46,567 nt of DNA from Syntrophobacteraceae bacterium. GTDB lineage: Bacteria > Desulfobacterota > Syntrophobacteria > Syntrophobacterales > Syntrophobacteraceae. The notes beneath the pieces were generated by a model. The model worked only from the letters and a program-made list of their open reading frames with translations. It did not search any database and was not told where the DNA came from. The stretch spans positions 1-46,567 of the forward strand of contig JABUEY010000012.1 of NCBI GenBank assembly GCA_013314815.1, read 5' to 3'. Below, piece after piece: positions 19,273 through 26,649 of the stretch (its first letter is position 1; the number at the start of each line of letters is the position of its first letter). A program made the translations under genes and the position numbers.

Positions 19273-20163
19273 TTAGGCACCCGATGGCCTAAACATGAGG
19301 CCCAGCGCCTCTTCCACATCTCCGGAAAAGAGCCTCACCAGATCTGCAAGCTTTTCGAGGTACCGGAAGAAGCCGGCTCTCCGCGCCTGGTAAACCACCG
19401 GACCCGCCTTTTCCATCGCCTCCGGGTAGTCGTCGACCAGGCTCTTCCAGTACATGGCCAAAAAATCATCCGTCGGAGACCCAACCTGTCGCAGATAGCC
19501 TATCCGGCTGAATACGTACGTTTCCCCAGCTGCGCTCAAGGCTTTATGCAGGACAGGAAGTCCAACCAGCACCACGCCACACCCAGATTCGTACAGCTGC
19601 CGGAACACCTCCACCAGACGCAGCACGTTCCGGCGCGTTCGGTTCCCCATGAGCAGGTCGGCCTCGTCAACAATCAGGAACCGTCCCATGGCAGCCTCGC
19701 ATAGCCTGGCCATTTTGGCGTCATTGCCGCCGTCAGAGCTCAGATTCCACAGCCGGCAAAGGTCCCCGAGTAATCCACCAAGAGACTGACTCATCCTGGC
19801 CGTGTAAACGTCGGCCCCGTAACCGTGCCCATACCGGTTCACCACCCATGTCTTTCCAACCCCGGACGCCCCGACCAGTACCGCGAAATCGTGCTGTTTT
19901 CTCACCAGATCCATGAGTACCCATGCCTGCTTCTGTCCGGGCGTGATCATTGGCGCATCCTCGCGGCCACACTCAGCTCCGCCGCCTCCACTCGGCCCGA
20001 TCCTTGATTCAAGAAGGCTCCGGATCTCTTCCACCACCTCGTCTCTTCCATGGTACTTGCCGTTGATAACCTGGCTCACGGTCGCCTTGGATCTACCTGT
20101 AGCCTGTACGACCTCCGCCACGCTCATTCCGCTCGCTCTAAACAATCCAAGCATCGCCGCCAT
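19273..20163 (-). CDS. MuB-like AAA+ ATPase, target selector for transposition
   Basis: A 296-residue protein. Residues about 1-55 are a small HTH (MSVAEVVQATGRSKATVSQV), as in MuB. The ATPase core has Walker A VLVGASGVGKT at about residue 98 and Walker B FLIVDEADLLMGNRTRRNVL at about 165. A sensor-like GCGVVLVGLPVLHKAL region follows. The C-terminal helices match the part of MuB that contacts MuA. MuB coats target DNA in an ATP-dependent way, activates MuA and takes part in target immunity. The start at 20,163 follows AAAGGAGGAAGC; an upstream ATG at 20,178 overlaps the transposase stop (ATGA). Confidence 0.93.
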   Translation of the reverse strand: MAAMLGLFRASGMSVAEVVQATGRSKATVSQVINGKYHGRDEVVEEIRSLLESRIGPSGGGGAECGREDAPMITPGQKQAWVLMDLVRKQHDFAVLVGASGVGKTWVVNRYGHGYGADVYTARMSQSLGGLLGDLCRLWNLSSDGGNDAKMARLCEAAMGRFLIVDEADLLMGNRTRRNVLRLVEVFRQLYESGCGVVLVGLPVLHKALSAAGETYVFSRIGYLRQVGSPTDDFLAMYWKSLVDDYPEAMEKAGPVVYQARRAGFFRYLEKLADLVRLFSGDVEEALGLMFRPSGA

Positions 20164-20174
20164 GCTTCCTCCTT

Positions 20175-22244
20175 TCATTTGCCTGCGGTCATCGCCTCAA
20201 ACATCCGCTCAAGCTTCTTCCCGGCTTCGGCCGTCTTGGGCTTGAGCTCGCTTCTCGCCTTCGCATCATCCGCGGCCTGCTTTGCCGCACGGCTCGCGGG
20301 AACCACCCTTATCACCTCGGCCCTCCTGGCATTCGAGGCCGAGGCCTCATCGGCCTTGAGGAGACCGAATCCGTCAAAGACAGAAACCATTTGCTCCTTC
20401 CACCAGCGCCGAAGCTGCGCCTGGCGGATAAGCTTCTGCCTCAATCCCGCCGTGTCCCTGGGGTCTTGAACGTTCCACGGCTCCGCCAGGTCGATATAGG
20501 ACCCGTCGAGGTCCGTGATTATGGCTGGCGCCTCCACGTCATACGGATCCACGCTCACCTGCACCCGATCCTTCCTCCCCGACAGCAGCGGGGAGTAGTA
20601 GCATCTCCGGTCTCCCTTTCGGACCATCAGTTCGACCACGCTCTGTCGCGGAGTGCGCAGATAGCGGGGCAGGAAGAGATAGTCGAGCGTCCGGTCGTCG
20701 AACACCGGGCGGTTCTGTTCCACCAGGCCGTTGAAGAAGACCTTCTCCGGCACGATCTTTTCTATCTGCTCCTTCACCCGGCATTCCGATCGATTGTGGC
20801 TCCGGATCACATCGAAGAACGCTTCCAGGAATTCCTCGATCGAAAGGAGCTTCCCCTGCAGCCGCTCCTGTTTCAGGTGCCGGTTCCGCTCCTTGTTTAT
20901 CCAGGCGTCCGCGTCCCGCTTCCGGTACCCAGGAGTGAAACGGTTCGCCAACTCGCGCTCCAGGATGTTCATCTGGTTTTCGATCGGCTTGTTCCAAGGC
21001 ACGCCGGCCTGGGCCTTCCGGTGGGATATCTCTCCATGCAGAGTGGTCGAGCTCCCGACCATCCGGTCGCCGATGATCCCGCTTCCTCTGCCATCGCCAT
21101 TTCCTGCTTCACTAATCTCCCCGTACTTCAGCTTCCAGTCCAAGGCTCCGCCACACACCGCATACCCGGACAGCCCGGAAAGTATTTGGGCGACATGTTT
21201 CGATCCTTCCGGCTTCCCCCAGTCCGTGAAAATTTCATCGGGGATTCCCCACCGGAGAGCCTCCCGAAGACTGTGTCCGACGGTGAAGCTGTTGTAGTGG
21301 CCCATCTCCGGCCACACACCGGCCCAGTAACGGCTCGTGCAGTCCATCCAGATGTAGCACTCCGGGGTCATCGCCTCCCCGGTCTCCATGTCGAATACCT
21401 TGTAATCGAAGATGTGCTGGTCCCCGCAGAGCACCGTCATGACGGGCAGGCTCAGCCAGGAACGAACGATCTTGGGGATATAGTCTCGGTCGAAACCGAT
21501 GGTCCCGCGCCGGATTCGGTCCCACACCCCACGAGGGATCTTGCCCACCGCACGCGTGAAGTTCGTGTAATCACCGATCTCCCAGCCCCGGCGCGCGGCT
21601 TCGGCGCACAGGTCCTCGTATGCCGCTCGCTTCCCGTTGCGGATGTTCCTGGCGTACGTCATGATCCCGTAGGCCATGGCTTCCTGGTCGAATTTCCGGG
21701 TCCGCGGGATTTCCACTTTGACCAGAGGCACCCCCGCAGAACTCGATAGCTCGACCATCTGTTCGCAGGCATTTGCGATGCGCCAGCTCTCCACCTCCTC
21801 TGCCCACCGCCTGATGGTGGGATCCGACCTGCCGTATTTCGTGGCCAGCATACTCACAACCGAGCCCTTATCGCCCCAGTCCGCTTCCTCCAGGGCTCTT
21901 GCACATTCCAGTTTTGCCTGAACCTCTGGATCGGCAAGCTTTGGAGGGCTCAGCTTCTTCGCCCTAAGCCATGCCTGCATCGAATCCATGTCAGGCTCTG
22001 CGAGCTCAGGGCGAATGAGTCCAAGAGCTTCGCGAATGTCGCTAGGAAGGTCTTGGAACTCAAACGTGAGGTCCCCTCTCTTGTTCAGGGCATGGCCCTT
22101 CCAGCCTTCCTCCCTGGCGAGCCGCCTAATGTACCGCGCGCTACATCCCTTGGCTTTCGCGATCTCGCTTACCGTGTACCGCCTCACGCCCCCCCCAACA
22201 CCAGATCTAGGTCGGCATCCCAGCATGCCCCTGGCGAAAATCAC
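20175..22244 (-). CDS. MuA-like DDE transposase
   Basis: A 689-residue transposase. Residues about 20-75 are a Mu-type N-terminal HTH (RRYTVSEIAKAKGCSARYIR, then RLAREEGWKG). Two more DNA-binding regions precede the catalytic core. The core has Asp in VLCGDQHIFDYKVF (about residue 274), Asp in DEIFTDWGKPEGSKH (about 340) and Glu in KPIENQMNILERELANRF (about 421), the DDE triad order of MuA. The C-terminal third ends in basic helices expected to contact MuB. GTG 22,244 is taken as the start because AGGAGG lies 7 bases upstream and it is coupled to the Ner-like gene. It joins the phage ends to target DNA. Confidence 0.94.
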   Translation of the reverse strand: MIFARGMLGCRPRSGVGGGVRRYTVSEIAKAKGCSARYIRRLAREEGWKGHALNKRGDLTFEFQDLPSDIREALGLIRPELAEPDMDSMQAWLRAKKLSPPKLADPEVQAKLECARALEEADWGDKGSVVSMLATKYGRSDPTIRRWAEEVESWRIANACEQMVELSSSAGVPLVKVEIPRTRKFDQEAMAYGIMTYARNIRNGKRAAYEDLCAEAARRGWEIGDYTNFTRAVGKIPRGVWDRIRRGTIGFDRDYIPKIVRSWLSLPVMTVLCGDQHIFDYKVFDMETGEAMTPECYIWMDCTSRYWAGVWPEMGHYNSFTVGHSLREALRWGIPDEIFTDWGKPEGSKHVAQILSGLSGYAVCGGALDWKLKYGEISEAGNGDGRGSGIIGDRMVGSSTTLHGEISHRKAQAGVPWNKPIENQMNILERELANRFTPGYRKRDADAWINKERNRHLKQERLQGKLLSIEEFLEAFFDVIRSHNRSECRVKEQIEKIVPEKVFFNGLVEQNRPVFDDRTLDYLFLPRYLRTPRQSVVELMVRKGDRRCYYSPLLSGRKDRVQVSVDPYDVEAPAIITDLDGSYIDLAEPWNVQDPRDTAGLRQKLIRQAQLRRWWKEQMVSVFDGFGLLKADEASASNARRAEVIRVVPASRAAKQAADDAKARSELKPKTAEAGKKLERMFEAMTAGK

Positions 22245-22468
22245 ACCTCCACCTCCTCCGGAAGGCCCAGGATCTCGGTCGGACACCCCTTTTCAAGCAG
22301 GTAGCCGAGCACCCTGCGGTTATTCTTTCTCCCATGGATCGTACAGGTTACAAGAGCCCGTCCAACCCCAAGCTCCCTGGCGATCTTGGCCGGACGGTTT
22401 CCGCTCCTGATCATCCAAACCCATATTTCATCAACGTCCCTTTTCCCGGCCTTAAGCTTCACAGCCAC
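22241..22468 (-). CDS. Ner-like early regulator (HTH)
   Basis: A 75-residue DNA-binding protein with the HTH segment SGNRPAKIARELGVGRALVT, then CTIHGRKNNRRVLGYLLEKG and CPTEILGLPEEVEV. The layout (scanning helices, then a short basic loop, then a predicted final turn) is that of Ner/Nlp-type regulators, which in Mu repress the early and repressor promoters. Start GTG 22,468 is chosen because TGGAGG lies 6 bases upstream; the longer frame begins at GTG 22,495. It directly precedes the transposase. Confidence 0.75.
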   Translation of the reverse strand: MAVKLKAGKRDVDEIWVWMIRSGNRPAKIARELGVGRALVTCTIHGRKNNRRVLGYLLEKGCPTEILGLPEEVEV

Positions 22469-22801: not shown

Positions 22802-23224
22802 TCAAAGCTCCGCTTCGATCTGGCGCATTCTCTTGCGGCTCTTGCGCGCATTGTGATATTCCCTGGCCCATTCCAGGAGCTTCACATCATCGGAATCGAT
22901 CACCATTGCCCCAAGCGGCCTTACAAGAGCCTGTATTCCGCCGTTGTCTCCCACTACCGCGCAAAAAATGGGCAGTGCCTGGACGGTCGGCACATACTCA
23001 AGAGCCTTCGGGTTGAGCCATTTTTCAAACGTGTCTCGCCCGAGATCCCCGTTTCCTTTGACCAGGCGCACCCCGAAGCGTCTTGCCAGCTCATTCATGC
23101 GTTCAAGAATTTCGTCGCGGGAAAGACCGCACATCTTGGCCGAAACATTCATCGCCTCCTTGATGCCGGCGACCACATTCAGGCTCGTTGACGAAAACAT
23201 GTTGAGCTGCACCGGTCTTTTCAT
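22802..23224 (-). CDS. Early regulatory protein, CII/CP76-like
   Basis: A 140-residue protein, MKRPVQLNMFSSTSLNVVAG and so on. The middle (LSRDEILERMNELARRFGVR, GRDTFEKWLNPKALEYVPTV, then ALPIFCAVVGDNGGIQALVR) resembles phage regulatory proteins of the CII/CP76 kind, which have an N-terminal HTH and a KWxNP turn. The C-terminus is basic (NARKSRKRMRQIEAEL). GAGGG lies 7 bases before ATG 23,224; a GTG at 23,242 is the alternative. Second gene of the early operon. Confidence 0.65.
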   Translation of the reverse strand: MKRPVQLNMFSSTSLNVVAGIKEAMNVSAKMCGLSRDEILERMNELARRFGVRLVKGNGDLGRDTFEKWLNPKALEYVPTVQALPIFCAVVGDNGGIQALVRPLGAMVIDSDDVKLLEWAREYHNARKSRKRMRQIEAEL

Positions 23225-23241
23225 TGACATTCCCTCTGGCA

Positions 23242-23451
23242 CTAGACTTGTGGAACAAATCCGTACTGCTTTTGCAGCGGCCGATCAAAATTCGTTTCCC
23301 CATCTGGACTCTGGGGGAATATCTCCAAGGTGTCTATGTACGTGGTTCGATTAAGCCGACTTAGCCGATTCCTGATTGCCTTCCGGGTACCCTTGACGCA
23401 GGTGAGGGAAAAGTATCCGTAGAACGCAACAAACCTTGGCTTCCTCTTCAT
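23242..23451 (-). CDS. First gene of the early operon, basic protein of unknown function
   Basis: A 69-residue basic protein, MKRKPRFVAFYGYFSLTCVK and GTRKAIRNRLSRLNRTTYID in its first 40 residues. GGGAG precedes the ATG. It lies about 130 bases downstream of a good early promoter. No family recognised; small basic first genes of early operons often take over host or phage regulation. Confidence 0.6.
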   Translation of the reverse strand: MKRKPRFVAFYGYFSLTCVKGTRKAIRNRLSRLNRTTYIDTLEIFPQSPDGETNFDRPLQKQYGFVPQV

Positions 23452-23615: not shown

Positions 23616-23732
23616 GGTCAAAGATAGATATTTGGGTGGTTCCCAAAACAAATAATTGCCTTATGCCACCCGTTTGGAGGTTATTCTTAGTTATCTCCTG
23701 ATGTTACTGTGCTGGTTCCGCAAATTTCCTTG

Positions 23733-23773
23733 GTTCCCAATTTAGTTCCCAATTTTGTGTTCAGATTGGGAAC
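23733..23773. promoter_or_regulatory. Operator module 1, upstream of the repressor gene
   Basis: GTTCCCAAT at 23,733-23,741 and again at 23,745-23,753 (12-base step), then inverted ATTGGGAAC at 23,765-23,773, 11 bases on. Further half sites are GTTCCGCAAAT at 23,715 and GTTCCCAAAA at 23,639. It lies between the early promoter and the repressor start, as expected for repressor binding. Confidence 0.78.
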
Positions 23774-23817
23774 TAAATCTGGACTCCTTGGTTGGTCTAG
23801 ACTGGACACCCGAATAG

Positions 23818-24249
23818 ATGTTAGCCTCAAGAATGAAAACAGTCAGAGGAGACCTTCCGCAGAAAGCTTTCGCCAACCGGCTTGCTGTACACGTGAACAC
23901 TGTCCAGCGATGGGAAGCGGGCACAAGGCTTCCCTGCGCCGACGACCTACTCAGAATGCAGCAACAGTTTGACATCAACATCAACTGGCTGCTCAGCGGG
24001 GATGGTCCAAAGCATCTGAGCGAGCTGGAGCAGCCCAGGCCTGCGGAAGTGGTCCCCATCGAGAATGGCTTCATTGAGTCATTCAGGACTTGGGTGGCCG
24101 AGCTGATCAGCGAGGATTCTGCGTATAGGGGATGGTTCAAGGTCCAATTAATGAAGTGTTTCCCTGAATTTAAGGAATGGGTCGAAAAAAAACAGGGAGG
24201 GAGGTCATCTGAGAATAGTAGTCCCATGACCCACGAGAACAGCGCATAG
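23818..24249 (+). CDS. Phage repressor, XRE-type (immunity repressor)
   Basis: A 143-residue protein on the plus strand, opposite to the early operon. Residues about 6-62 are an XRE helix-turn-helix: MKTVRGDLPQKAFANRLAVH, then VNTVQRWEAGTRLPCADDLL and the INWLLSGDGP ending typical of phage repressors. The remaining 75 residues are helical (ESFRTWVAELISEDSAYRGW), probably for oligomerisation; no LexA-type protease motif is seen. It differs from the Mu c repressor, which shares its DNA-binding fold with MuA. No strong ribosome site precedes ATG 23,818; ATG 23,833 is an alternative start. Confidence 0.85.
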   Translation: MLASRMKTVRGDLPQKAFANRLAVHVNTVQRWEAGTRLPCADDLLRMQQQFDININWLLSGDGPKHLSELEQPRPAEVVPIENGFIESFRTWVAELISEDSAYRGWFKVQLMKCFPEFKEWVEKKQGGRSSENSSPMTHENSA

Positions 24250-24366
24250 GGGCGCTCTTGGTGGGAAAATTTGGTTCGTAATCGAGTTTTTCGTGTTTTT
24301 AGGCGCAGACTCTTATATATTCATGGATGTTAGCGTCTTACGCTTCCTGTTCGCAAAGATCAGGTG

Positions 24367-24407
24367 GTTCGCAATTCGGTTCGCAATCGGAGTGAAAAAT
24401 TGCGAAC
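24367..24407. promoter_or_regulatory. Operator module 2, between repressor and cargo genes
   Basis: GTTCGCAAT at 24,367-24,375 and 24,379-24,387 (12-base step), then inverted ATTGCGAAC at 24,399-24,407 after 11 bases. The spacing is identical to module 1, with the central C of the half site changed to G. One more half site, GTTCGTAAT, is at 24,274-24,282. It stands just upstream of the DUF4352 gene and probably controls the cargo genes. Confidence 0.75.
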
Positions 24408-24460
24408 CAGGTAGCAACAGAAGGATCACCTTAAACATTCATACAAAAGGAGGTATAAAA

Positions 24461-25162
24461 ATGGCTCTGTCTAAATGTCGTGAATGTGGCAATCAGGTGA
24501 GCACCGAAGCCAAGACATGCCCGCAATGCGGCGCAAAGGTCAAACGACCGATGTCCAAGACAAAGAAGATCCTCCTCGGTCTATTTGCCCTGCTGATAGT
24601 TGCAGGCATATTTGCTCCCAAGGATAAAGACTCACAACAGAAAACCACTCAGACGGCGGCAACAGCCCCAGCCGCCGCCCCAGCTCAACCACCGGGCGAA
24701 AAGCCAGAAGATTCAACTAAGTCCACCGCTCCCGTCGCCGAGAAACCATCAAAACCGATTGCTGGCGTGGGCGACGAGGTGAATGTTGGTAACTTCATCT
24801 ACAAGGTGAATGGGGTTAAATTTTCAAAATCAGTCGGCAACCAATTCGCGCAAGAAAGGGCTGATGGCATATTTCTCCTTGTTGATCTAACCATAACGAA
24901 TACATCCTCTGAAACCCGATTAATTGATAACGCCCTATTCAAGCTCCAGGACCAATCAAACGTTTCATATGAGCCCTCATCCGAAGGCTCCACGGCACTT
25001 GAACTATCTGGAGCCAAGACACTATTCTTGAAGCAATGCCAGCCCAACATCCCAACCAAGGGTGTCCTTGTATTTGAAGTCCCCAACCAGAAGGAATCCT
25101 ACACCTTGAACTTGAGTGGTGGCTTTTGGTCTGCAAAAAACGCTCATGTTAAATTGAACTAA
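24461..25162 (+). CDS. Zinc-ribbon, membrane-anchored DUF4352 protein (cargo)
   Basis: A 233-residue protein. Residues 6-23 hold a zinc ribbon (KCRECGNQVS, then TCPQCGAK); residues about 35-51 are one transmembrane helix (KILLGLFALLIVAGIFAP). About 58-100 is a Pro/Ala/Gln-rich linker. About 105-233 is a DUF4352-like Ig-fold domain (VGDEVNVGNFIYKVNGVKFS, GIFLLVDLTITNTSSETRLI, KGVLVFEVPNQKESYTLNLS). Topology: zinc ribbon in the cytoplasm, Ig domain outside. AAGGAGGT lies 6 bases before ATG. It is not a Mu core gene and lies between the repressor and the phage end, a usual place for host-altering cargo. Function unknown. Confidence 0.8.
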   Translation: MALSKCRECGNQVSTEAKTCPQCGAKVKRPMSKTKKILLGLFALLIVAGIFAPKDKDSQQKTTQTAATAPAAAPAQPPGEKPEDSTKSTAPVAEKPSKPIAGVGDEVNVGNFIYKVNGVKFSKSVGNQFAQERADGIFLLVDLTITNTSSETRLIDNALFKLQDQSNVSYEPSSEGSTALELSGAKTLFLKQCQPNIPTKGVLVFEVPNQKESYTLNLSGGFWSAKNAHVKLN

Positions 25163-25231
25163 CAGCAGGTTATTAAAGGACCAATACCCATAACCAGCAG
25201 ACAGTCTACTTTCGGCCTTGCTATATCGCTC

Positions 25232-25879
25232 ATGTCTTTCTTGTGCGCCGTTACTCCGCTCTATGGCTGGCAGGGAAGGGTGGTCCAGGTAATTGACGGC
25301 GATACCATGGTGGTCATGAAAGGCGAAGAATCCGTGAACGTTCGACTCTATGGTATCGACTGCCCTGAAGGCAATCAGGCTTCCGGTCGAGAAGCTTGGA
25401 TCTTTGCCTCAAAGCTCGCGGACGGTAACCCGGTGGAAGTTCAGCCCATCGACATCGACCGATACGGGCGAACGGTTGCCACCGTCCACGTCAACGGCCG
25501 GTCCATAAACGAAGAATTGATCAGGTCCGGCCACGCCTGGGTCTATACTCAGTATTGCACAAACGACTTCTGCCGCGACTGGCTGAAACTCCAATCCGAC
25601 TCCCAGGGCGCGAGATCCGGCTTATGGGCAGCCAAAAACCCAACCCCACCATGGGATTTCAGGCACTCCTTCAAACTCGCCCAGGCAACACCTCAATCCT
25701 CAAAACCCAAGGCTCCTCCCGCAAGCGCCGCCTCATACCACGGCAACATATCATCCCGCATCTTCCACGACTCTTCCTGTCAACACTACGACTGCAAAGC
25801 TTGCACGGCCACCTTCACCACCCGCCAACAAGCCCTCGACGCAGGCTACAGACCCTGCAAGAAGTGCGGTGCAAAATGA
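25232..25879 (+). CDS. Secreted thermonuclease (SNase family) with C-terminal zinc-binding segment
   Basis: A protein of 215 residues from ATG 25,232. The SNase core runs from about 14 to 135: VVQVIDGDTMVVMKG, VNVRLYGIDCPEGNQASGRE, IDIDRYGRTVATVHVNGRSI and EELIRSGHAWVY. The family's catalytic Arg, Glu and Arg match R38, E46 and R80, with D22 and D43 for the metal. The C-terminal 45 residues hold SSRIFHDSSCQHYDCKAC, then ALDAGYRPCKKCGAK, an Ada-like four-Cys segment found behind many bacterial SNases. The signal peptide seems to begin upstream of the ATG (frame STFGLAISLMSFLCAV); in-frame ATA or ATT codons near AAAGGA at 25,175 may be the real start. Confidence 0.85.
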   Translation: MSFLCAVTPLYGWQGRVVQVIDGDTMVVMKGEESVNVRLYGIDCPEGNQASGREAWIFASKLADGNPVEVQPIDIDRYGRTVATVHVNGRSINEELIRSGHAWVYTQYCTNDFCRDWLKLQSDSQGARSGLWAAKNPTPPWDFRHSFKLAQATPQSSKPKAPPASAASYHGNISSRIFHDSSCQHYDCKACTATFTTRQQALDAGYRPCKKCGAK

Positions 25880-25890
25880 CCCCCACCCCA

Positions 25891-25911
25891 GTTTGCAAAC
25901 AGTTTATAAAC
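25891..25911. repeat. Two adjacent 10-bp palindromes GTTTGCAAAC and GTTTATAAAC
   Basis: Perfect palindromes at 25,891-25,900 and 25,902-25,911, one turn apart, followed by AGTTCGCAC. They lie between the nuclease gene and the phage end. They resemble the GTTYAWAAAC repeats at 5,201-5,231 at the head/tail junction. Confidence 0.5.
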
Positions 25912-25940
25912 AGTTCGCACCCCAAACACCCCTCCCCACT

Positions 25941-26095
25941 TTTGATCACCAAAACGCAATTTCAACCGCAAAATCCCCACCCTCAACCCACCCACGAATT
26001 GCGTTTTGATCACACCCAAAATCCCCCAATCCCACGAATTCACACCAAATCCCGCCAAATCCCAAAACATCCCCAAAATCATCAAACCCAATGCA
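25941..26095. promoter_or_regulatory. Prophage left end with putative transposase-binding sites
   Basis: Site 1, TTTGATCA-N5-ACGCAATT, is at 25,941-25,961 (plus). Site 2, minus strand, has TGATCA and ACGCAATT two bases apart at about 25,999-26,016. Site 3, near the end, is AATCATCA-N6-ATGCAATT at about 26,078-26,098. The DNA between them is strongly C/A-biased on the plus strand, with repeated CCCAAAAT words. Mu ends carry three transposase sites each, so three related sites here fit a left end. The boundary is placed after CA at 26,094-26,095. Confidence 0.6.
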
Positions 26096-26649
26096 ATTTC
26101 CTTGCTCTCAGCCTGATGGTCGCTGCGGCACCCGCGGCAGCTGCAAAGAAGAAGGAGGGAAACAAGCCGGGCGTGGTGATGACCGAAGTGGTGGTCGTCA
26201 AGGCCTCTGTCGAAGTTGTGGACCACGAGAACCGACTTCTGACCCTGAAAGGACCCGAAGGGAATGTTGTGACTGTGAGAGTGGGCGAAGAGGTCCGCAA
26301 CTTCCACCAGATCAAAACGGGTGACGAAATCGTGGCCGAATACTTCGATTCCATAGCGGTCTATGTGGAAAAGTCAGGAAGGAAACCGGCCGCAGGCGAG
26401 CTGGACATGGTGGAAGTGGCGCCGCTGGGAGAGAAGCCCGCGGGTATCGCCGTGAGCACTTCGGAAGTCAAGGCCCTGGTGAAGGATATTGACCACAAGA
26501 AACGCACGGTTACCCTCCAGGGACCCGAAGGTAGGTCGGTTTCCCTGAAAGTGGACAAAGGGGTCAAGAACTTCGACAGAGTCAAGAAAGGCGACGAAGT
26601 CGTTGTGGTCCACACCGAAGCCGTCGCGATCGCCGTCCGAGAGCCGTAA
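26096..26649 (+). pseudogene. Host secreted two-repeat protein gene cut off by the prophage
   Basis: The frame resumes inside a signal peptide (FLALSLMVAAAPAAAAKKKE) with no upstream host start. The mature part holds two copies of a ~55-residue unit: VKASVEVVDHENRLLTLKGP with GNVVTVRVGEEVRNFHQIKT, and VKALVKDIDHKKRTVTLQGP with SVSLKVDKGVKNFDRVKKGD. Each unit resembles a small beta-barrel found in secreted bacterial proteins. The first codons must lie on the far side of the prophage, outside the window. ATG 26,116 could still start a truncated product, but without the charged n-region it would not be exported well. Confidence 0.78.

Follow-up and report, generated by a model that had tools for sequence, protein, structure and literature searches.

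Background

Only a handful of prophage DNases have been described that block natural transformation. According to the accessible parts of one report, the prophage DNase YokF makes transformation about tenfold lower, Dns of the element CJIE1 lowers it by three orders of magnitude, and the nucleases of CJIE2 and CJIE4 lower it by two orders (PMC4774983). CJIE1 is described, in the available portions of two reports, as a Mu-like element carrying an extracellular DNase (PMC7291426, PMC4774983). For the Mu-like phage Fc02, the part of the study available to us presents RNA-seq data in which an accessory gene behind the repressor belongs to the lysogen transcript (PMC9936078). A literature search for DUF4352 together with thermonuclease found no paper. 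Here we describe a gene pair of this composition that follows the repressor gene in a Mu-like prophage. The whole stretch of DNA that was analysed, referred to as the window, is one entire contig of the host genome (46,567 nt).

Results

The left half of the window is a Mu-like transposable prophage, whose minus strand encodes the portal, head, terminase, Mu B-like, and Mu A-like proteins. The prophage is assigned to the Mu-like group by a Mu A-type transposase (phrog_310) adjoining a Mu B-type ATPase (phrog_296). Past the Mu A/Mu B side, the plus strand carries a repressor-type HTH gene, then two cargo genes, then the left end. The features considered here are as follows:

19273..20178, minus strand: transposition ATPase, Mu B-like (phrog_296, E 7e-33)
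20175..22286, minus strand: transposase, Mu A-like (phrog_310, E 2e-60)
22802..23242, minus strand: early regulator, used here as the family marker (phrog_2345, E 4e-21)
23638..23774, no strand: operator array OA of the resident repressor, GGTTCC type, boxes at 23638, 23714, 23732, 23744, and 23765 (minus)
23818..24249, plus strand: immunity repressor-type HTH protein (HTH_3, E 8e-5; phrog_8, E 6e-11)
24273..24408, no strand: operator array OB before the cargo, GGTTCG type, boxes at 24273, 24348, 24366, 24378, and 24399 (minus)
24461..25162, plus strand: protein with zinc ribbon, membrane anchor, and DUF4352 (Pfam, hydrophobicity)
25163..25879, plus strand: predicted exported SNase-fold nuclease with a C-terminal Ada-type zinc module, start codon putative (Pfam)
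25880..26104, no strand: left-end DNA of the phage (alignment with L109)

The initial annotation had placed two plus-strand, non-core genes between the repressor and the left end, and this observation is confirmed: both ORFs are present with matched domains, they follow the HTH gene, and they end where the left-end DNA shared with L109 begins. L109 is an IMG/VR contig whose transposase is 76% identical to that of the prophage (residues 36-358). The left end was fixed by aligning the two, with 225 bp (25880-26104) matching the corresponding L109 end. The common sequence runs to 26104 and the prophage left end lies at about 26095-26104; the usual TG rule would put it at 26095. Of the two ends that a 5-bp target duplication would flank, the window contains the left one; the right end is beyond the contig. 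A host gene pair outside the prophage was rejected as an explanation of the cargo since left-end DNA lies beyond it. Past that DNA, the signal-peptide coding of a host gene resumes, and the sequence at 26104-26649 shows that the prophage interrupts this gene and has removed its start; the product appears to be exported and has a RimM PRC-like match (E 3e-6). The transposase had no match among named phages, and a scan of the genome collection with it returned only five relatives, at 29-36% identity.

In the protein encoded by the first cargo gene, a zinc ribbon (PF13240, residues 5-27, E 2e-7) is followed by a hydrophobic segment at about residues 34-52, and a Pro/Ala-rich linker then leads to a DUF4352 domain (PF11611, residues 102-227, E 2e-24). 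Its single-sequence fold, of low confidence (mean pLDDT 51), has a helix at 33-50 and a beta domain at 106-216, and no solved structure was matched by sequence. DUF4352 is scarce in the phylum, with a match in 10 of 395 genomes, above the cut-off in six.

The second gene encodes a nuclease matching PF00565 (SNase, E 1e-19), with an Ada-type zinc module at the C-terminus that falls just under its cut-off (E 9e-5). Aligned to the solved thermonuclease PDB 6u0x, it keeps the DGDT, RL..(V/I)D.PE, and YGR motifs, and with them the catalytic Asp/Arg/Asp/Glu/Arg set of the SNase fold. Because these motifs are conserved, the nuclease looks catalytically competent. The two genes share one reading frame and are separated by a single TAA. 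In the nuclease frame, there is no ATG, GTG, or TTG from the DUF4352 stop (25160-25162) up to the first ATG at 25232, and the 69 bases before that ATG encode most of the signal-peptide-like segment. The start codon is uncertain because no standard start precedes this segment; it is likely a rare codon (ATT at 25172, ATA at 25184 or 25190), or translation is coupled to the upstream gene. Given the missing standard start, weak translation of the nuclease or decay of the 5' end of its gene is also conceivable. A decayed pseudogene was rejected on the intact frame and conserved residues, with the start codon treated as putative.

Within the class, the closest nuclease relatives are 44-48% identical, and the 20 SNase stretches examined in class relatives had no Mu-like window proteins around them. 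In six class genomes (G007, G008, G009, G039, G040, and G043), the SNase relative is interrupted by a single in-frame stop. A single-protein scan of IMG/VR with the nuclease, in search of sister phages, gave no match. In PADLOC the pair matched no described anti-phage defence system: the nuclease hit only a generic SNase-domain model (E 1e-12), and the best E value for the DUF4352 protein was 0.016, with nothing above noise.

L109 offers a close comparison for the region behind the repressor. Its early regulator is 67% and its repressor 47-50% identical to those of the window. Past the repressor, it has about 420 bp of left-end DNA with no recognisable gene and neither cargo gene, so that the pair, being missing from a close relative and set between core genes, is a candidate moron (lysogenic-conversion gene). 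At L109 1-5060, read by eye, the sister phage appears to be set among ORFs of phage-structural type, perhaps as a nested prophage.

We surveyed this slot in 22 loci found through the early regulator (one of which, L116, is L109 again) and in L115, found through the transposase. Setting aside four loci truncated at the repressor and one in which no repressor was recognised, 18 loci (among them L109) had both a recognisable repressor and a slot that could be read. Judged by eye, 10 of these 18 slots hold clear cargo, which varies among loci; the other eight have doubtful ORFs or none. The slot of L135 (3362-4597), a related transposable phage, encodes a homologue of LmuA from Lamassu (E 2e-67), that of L122 a RelA/SpoT-type candidate defence protein (PDC-S33, E 4e-10), and that of L117 a DUF3800 protein with a weak PADLOC match (E 8e-4). 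L123 carries a zinc-ribbon protein homologous to residues 1-81 of the window DUF4352 protein. Across 10 cargo proteins from seven loci, PADLOC gave two clear matches (L135, L122), one weak match (L117), and seven proteins without a match. The slot behind the repressor is thus a variable cargo site in related phages, one that includes known and candidate defence genes.

An alignment scan of IMG/VR identified, among the first 600 pattern matches, at least 354 confirmed relatives of the nuclease, of which the best 80 loci were analysed. A repressor HMM was built from 22 repressors, including those of the window and of phages TJ1, Mae-JY22, and Mcat8, the last three found through their SNase neighbours. 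This HMM gave 34 matches in the best 80 of at least 354 loci. Within 2 kb of the SNase, 24 were upstream on the same strand and three were elsewhere. The remaining upstream matches comprised two farther out on the same strand and one on the opposite strand. Seven matches were downstream, three of them within 2 kb (two on the same strand, one opposite) and four beyond 2 kb on the opposite strand. After redundancy was removed from the same best 80, there were 14 loci with the repressor upstream on the same strand versus two placed otherwise.

Gene calls by a simple longest-ORF rule recovered the SNase ORF in 64 of the best 80 loci, and dropping ORFs at least 70% identical left 52 non-redundant SNases. 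Directly upstream of these 52 was the repressor in four cases, no same-strand gene within 250 bp in 11, and another gene in 37. The repressor precedes the intervening gene in eight of the 37, and in seven of these eight the intervening gene is envelope-type, compared with 148 of 549 control genes (p 7e-4), where envelope-type denotes a hydropathy threshold and not the output of a signal-peptide predictor. The eighth, in L276, has a signal-peptide-like start and falls short of the hydropathy cut-off. Among the 29 upstream genes without a visible repressor, 9 were envelope-type, a background level in this set drawn from the best 80 of at least 354. The intervening genes of L265 and L250 have Cys-x-x-Cys pairs and a membrane segment, like the window DUF4352 protein. 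Three named phages, Curvibacter TJ1, Microcystis Mae-JY22, and Moraxella Mcat8, have an SNase behind the repressor; in Mae-JY22 and Mcat8 the repressor carries no annotation, and its recognition relied on its position and on the HMM, to which both sequences had contributed. The nuclease matched 92 named records, mostly Staphylococcus phages, and its best named match, a Salmonella genomic island, is without the repressor-SNase layout.

The initial annotation had likened the layout of the locus to a lysogenic-conversion or phage-defence cassette, and the variable slot in relatives and the recurring SNase behind a repressor support the layout of a lysogenic-conversion cassette. It had also proposed looking for the two genes side by side in other prophages, and here the expectation failed: the exact DUF4352 and SNase pair was found nowhere else among the databases searched, no SNase match occurred at the 32 non-self DUF4352 or zinc-ribbon loci, and only the architecture recurs. 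In L044 (G034:C68), an overlapping pair of genes for a zinc-ribbon/membrane protein and an SNase was noted at 391-1619, directly beside a tRNA-Pro gene; this is an independent pair that may lie on an integrated element. Read by eye, the outer domains of L123 (223-1059), L274 (5507-5980), and L044 (891-1619) have a "DP.SA.F ... N.FG" pattern, which may mark a domain that repeatedly partners phage SNases; a BLAST comparison of L123 with L044 was not significant.

The initial annotation had further claimed a repressor-type operator before the pair. That claim held in that the array is real and beyond chance; as to its type, the boxes differ from those of the repressor at one fixed position. With OA box 23714 and OB box 24348 read by eye, the box intervals are 75/18/12/21 in OB and 76/18/12/21 in OA. 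A chance origin was rejected, as the core repeat GTTCNCAATN11ATTGNGAAC occurs at only two places across 55 genomes of the class, both in the window, and the GTTCGCAAT-type pair (GTTCGCAAN4GTTCGCAA) in one of 395 phylum genomes, the window's own. Position 6 is C in 14 of 14 boxes of OA (five) and of the two closest relatives, L109 (five) and L107 (four), versus G in 5 of 5 OB boxes, with a Fisher p of 9e-5 that is optimistic because the position was picked post hoc. By eye, relatives L106, L109, L117, L124, L135, and L136 follow a similar plan, each using a box sequence of its own, with direct copies spaced 12-13 bp and one more copy at a distance upstream. When 22 immunity regions, including the window, were scored for a second array behind the repressor, only the window was clearly above its shuffles. 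L132 scored slightly above its own shuffles with an A-rich match, as did L128 and L130 with a common 10-bp repeat.

In IMG/VR, the inverted-repeat operator was found on 14 contigs, none with any window protein. The GTTCGCAAN4GTTCGCAA pair was found on 73 contigs, mostly inside long ORFs. L180 has the only one of these occurrences directly before a gene recognised by eye as an HTH repressor. It is a transposable phage (phrog_310, E 6e-66; phrog_296, E 1e-60), and its operator includes a third box, inverted and almost identical in sequence, as well as an additional box upstream. The L180 repressor is 19% identical to the window repressor. Judging from these sequences, GTTCGCAAT likely serves as the immunity box in another transposable phage, one whose repressor differs, and OB is best read as a complete immunity-type array of foreign specificity. 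We infer that an immunity swap or recombination brought it behind the repressor.

Discussion

The reading we favour, and consider fairly probable, is that the pair forms a lysogenic-conversion operon, an exported cassette against DNA uptake or for exclusion that is on in lysogens. Its probable effect would be to keep foreign DNA out of the host. The nuclease would be exported through its signal peptide and cut DNA in or outside the cell envelope, and the DUF4352 protein would be anchored in the inner membrane, with the zinc ribbon inside and the beta domain outside, where it may hold, protect, or direct the nuclease. The net effect would be to block DNA entry, namely prophage-deleting natural transformation and possibly injected phage DNA. 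Expression in the lysogen could come by read-through from the repressor gene, from a promoter at OB, or both; no terminator-like site was found on the plus strand between repressor and cargo. The host genome encodes a ComEC-family protein, which is weak evidence for DNA uptake because the family is widespread (matched in 10 of 14 control genomes). As an interpretation, the initial annotation is partly supported.

Several alternatives bear on what the pair does and when. An envelope nuclease with an anchor could instead destroy injected phage DNA, making this superinfection exclusion and phage defence, not protection against transformation; membrane anchoring beside the DNA entry route and the LmuA and PDC-S33 proteins in the slots of L135 and L122 fit such a role, which we nevertheless consider rather unlikely given that PADLOC returns only the generic SNase domain, with the DUF4352 protein at noise level, and that a literature search on staphylococcal nuclease, periplasm, and superinfection exclusion yielded no paper. 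The pair might also be switched off in the lysogen by the resident repressor acting on OB, so that the nuclease, once induced, scavenges DNA or excludes competitors during the lytic phase. OB has the geometry of OA and a related protein could bind it, yet the change of position 6 from C to G in all OB boxes speaks against the resident repressor, and we regard silencing of this kind as quite improbable.

About equally improbable is that OB is a leftover from an earlier immunity module and that the cargo rides along passively, with little or no expression or function. The completeness and different box type of OB, its low G+C (0.43, with 0.49 in the DUF4352 gene, versus 0.59 for the phage), and the irregular nuclease start would all suit a relic. 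Against it stand intact reading frames of 233 codons (DUF4352 gene) and 215 or more (nuclease), the conserved catalytic residues, and the recurrent order of repressor, envelope protein, and SNase, which argues for selection. A more speculative and rather unlikely reading gives OB a present role: the cargo may be wired to a rival immunity type, with OB controlled by a heteroimmune repressor recognising the GTTCGCAAT box, as in L180, and not by the resident one. If so, an ordinary lysogen would express the pair, its expression would change when a heteroimmune phage enters or co-resides, and an operator left from an immunity swap would have turned into a switch by which the cargo responds to competitors. 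The second array of apparently foreign specificity would be an unusual record of immunity swapping, and may point to cargo escaping from, or sensing, phage repressors.

Returning to the lysogenic-conversion reading, the recurrence of the layout behind the repressor is what leads us to a recurrent lysogenic-conversion operon. The survey points to the order "repressor, envelope protein, exported SNase" as a lysogenic operon that is widespread among temperate and transposable phages, which makes the role of phage SNase genes directly testable.

With respect to known systems, Dns has another nuclease fold than SNase, and YokF is a membrane-bound SNase-family protein of a Gram-positive host that is not known to lie behind a Mu-like repressor. 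Both resemble the window nuclease, Dns as a DNase from a Mu-like prophage (CJIE1 of Campylobacter) and YokF of Bacillus subtilis as a prophage-encoded DNase. Unlike the window, Dns is reported, in the available parts of its sources, with neither a membrane DUF4352 partner nor a second operator array, and YokF is described in the accessible parts of its source as a single gene. The repc-e4 arrangement of Pseudomonas phage Fc02 likewise has an accessory gene directly behind the repressor on one lysogen transcript, and the Fc02 repressor is one of the closest phage matches to that of the window (35% over 89 aa); e4, unlike the window cargo, has no assigned function, and a second operator array is not described in the available part of that study. 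Phages TJ1 and Mae-JY22 share with the window the order of repressor, membrane or exported protein, and SNase on one strand. Unlike in the window, their intervening gene has no Pfam match, hence no DUF4352, and their SNase is without the Ada-type zinc module. The TJ1 cargo precedes lysis genes, whereas the window cargo runs up to the end of the phage.
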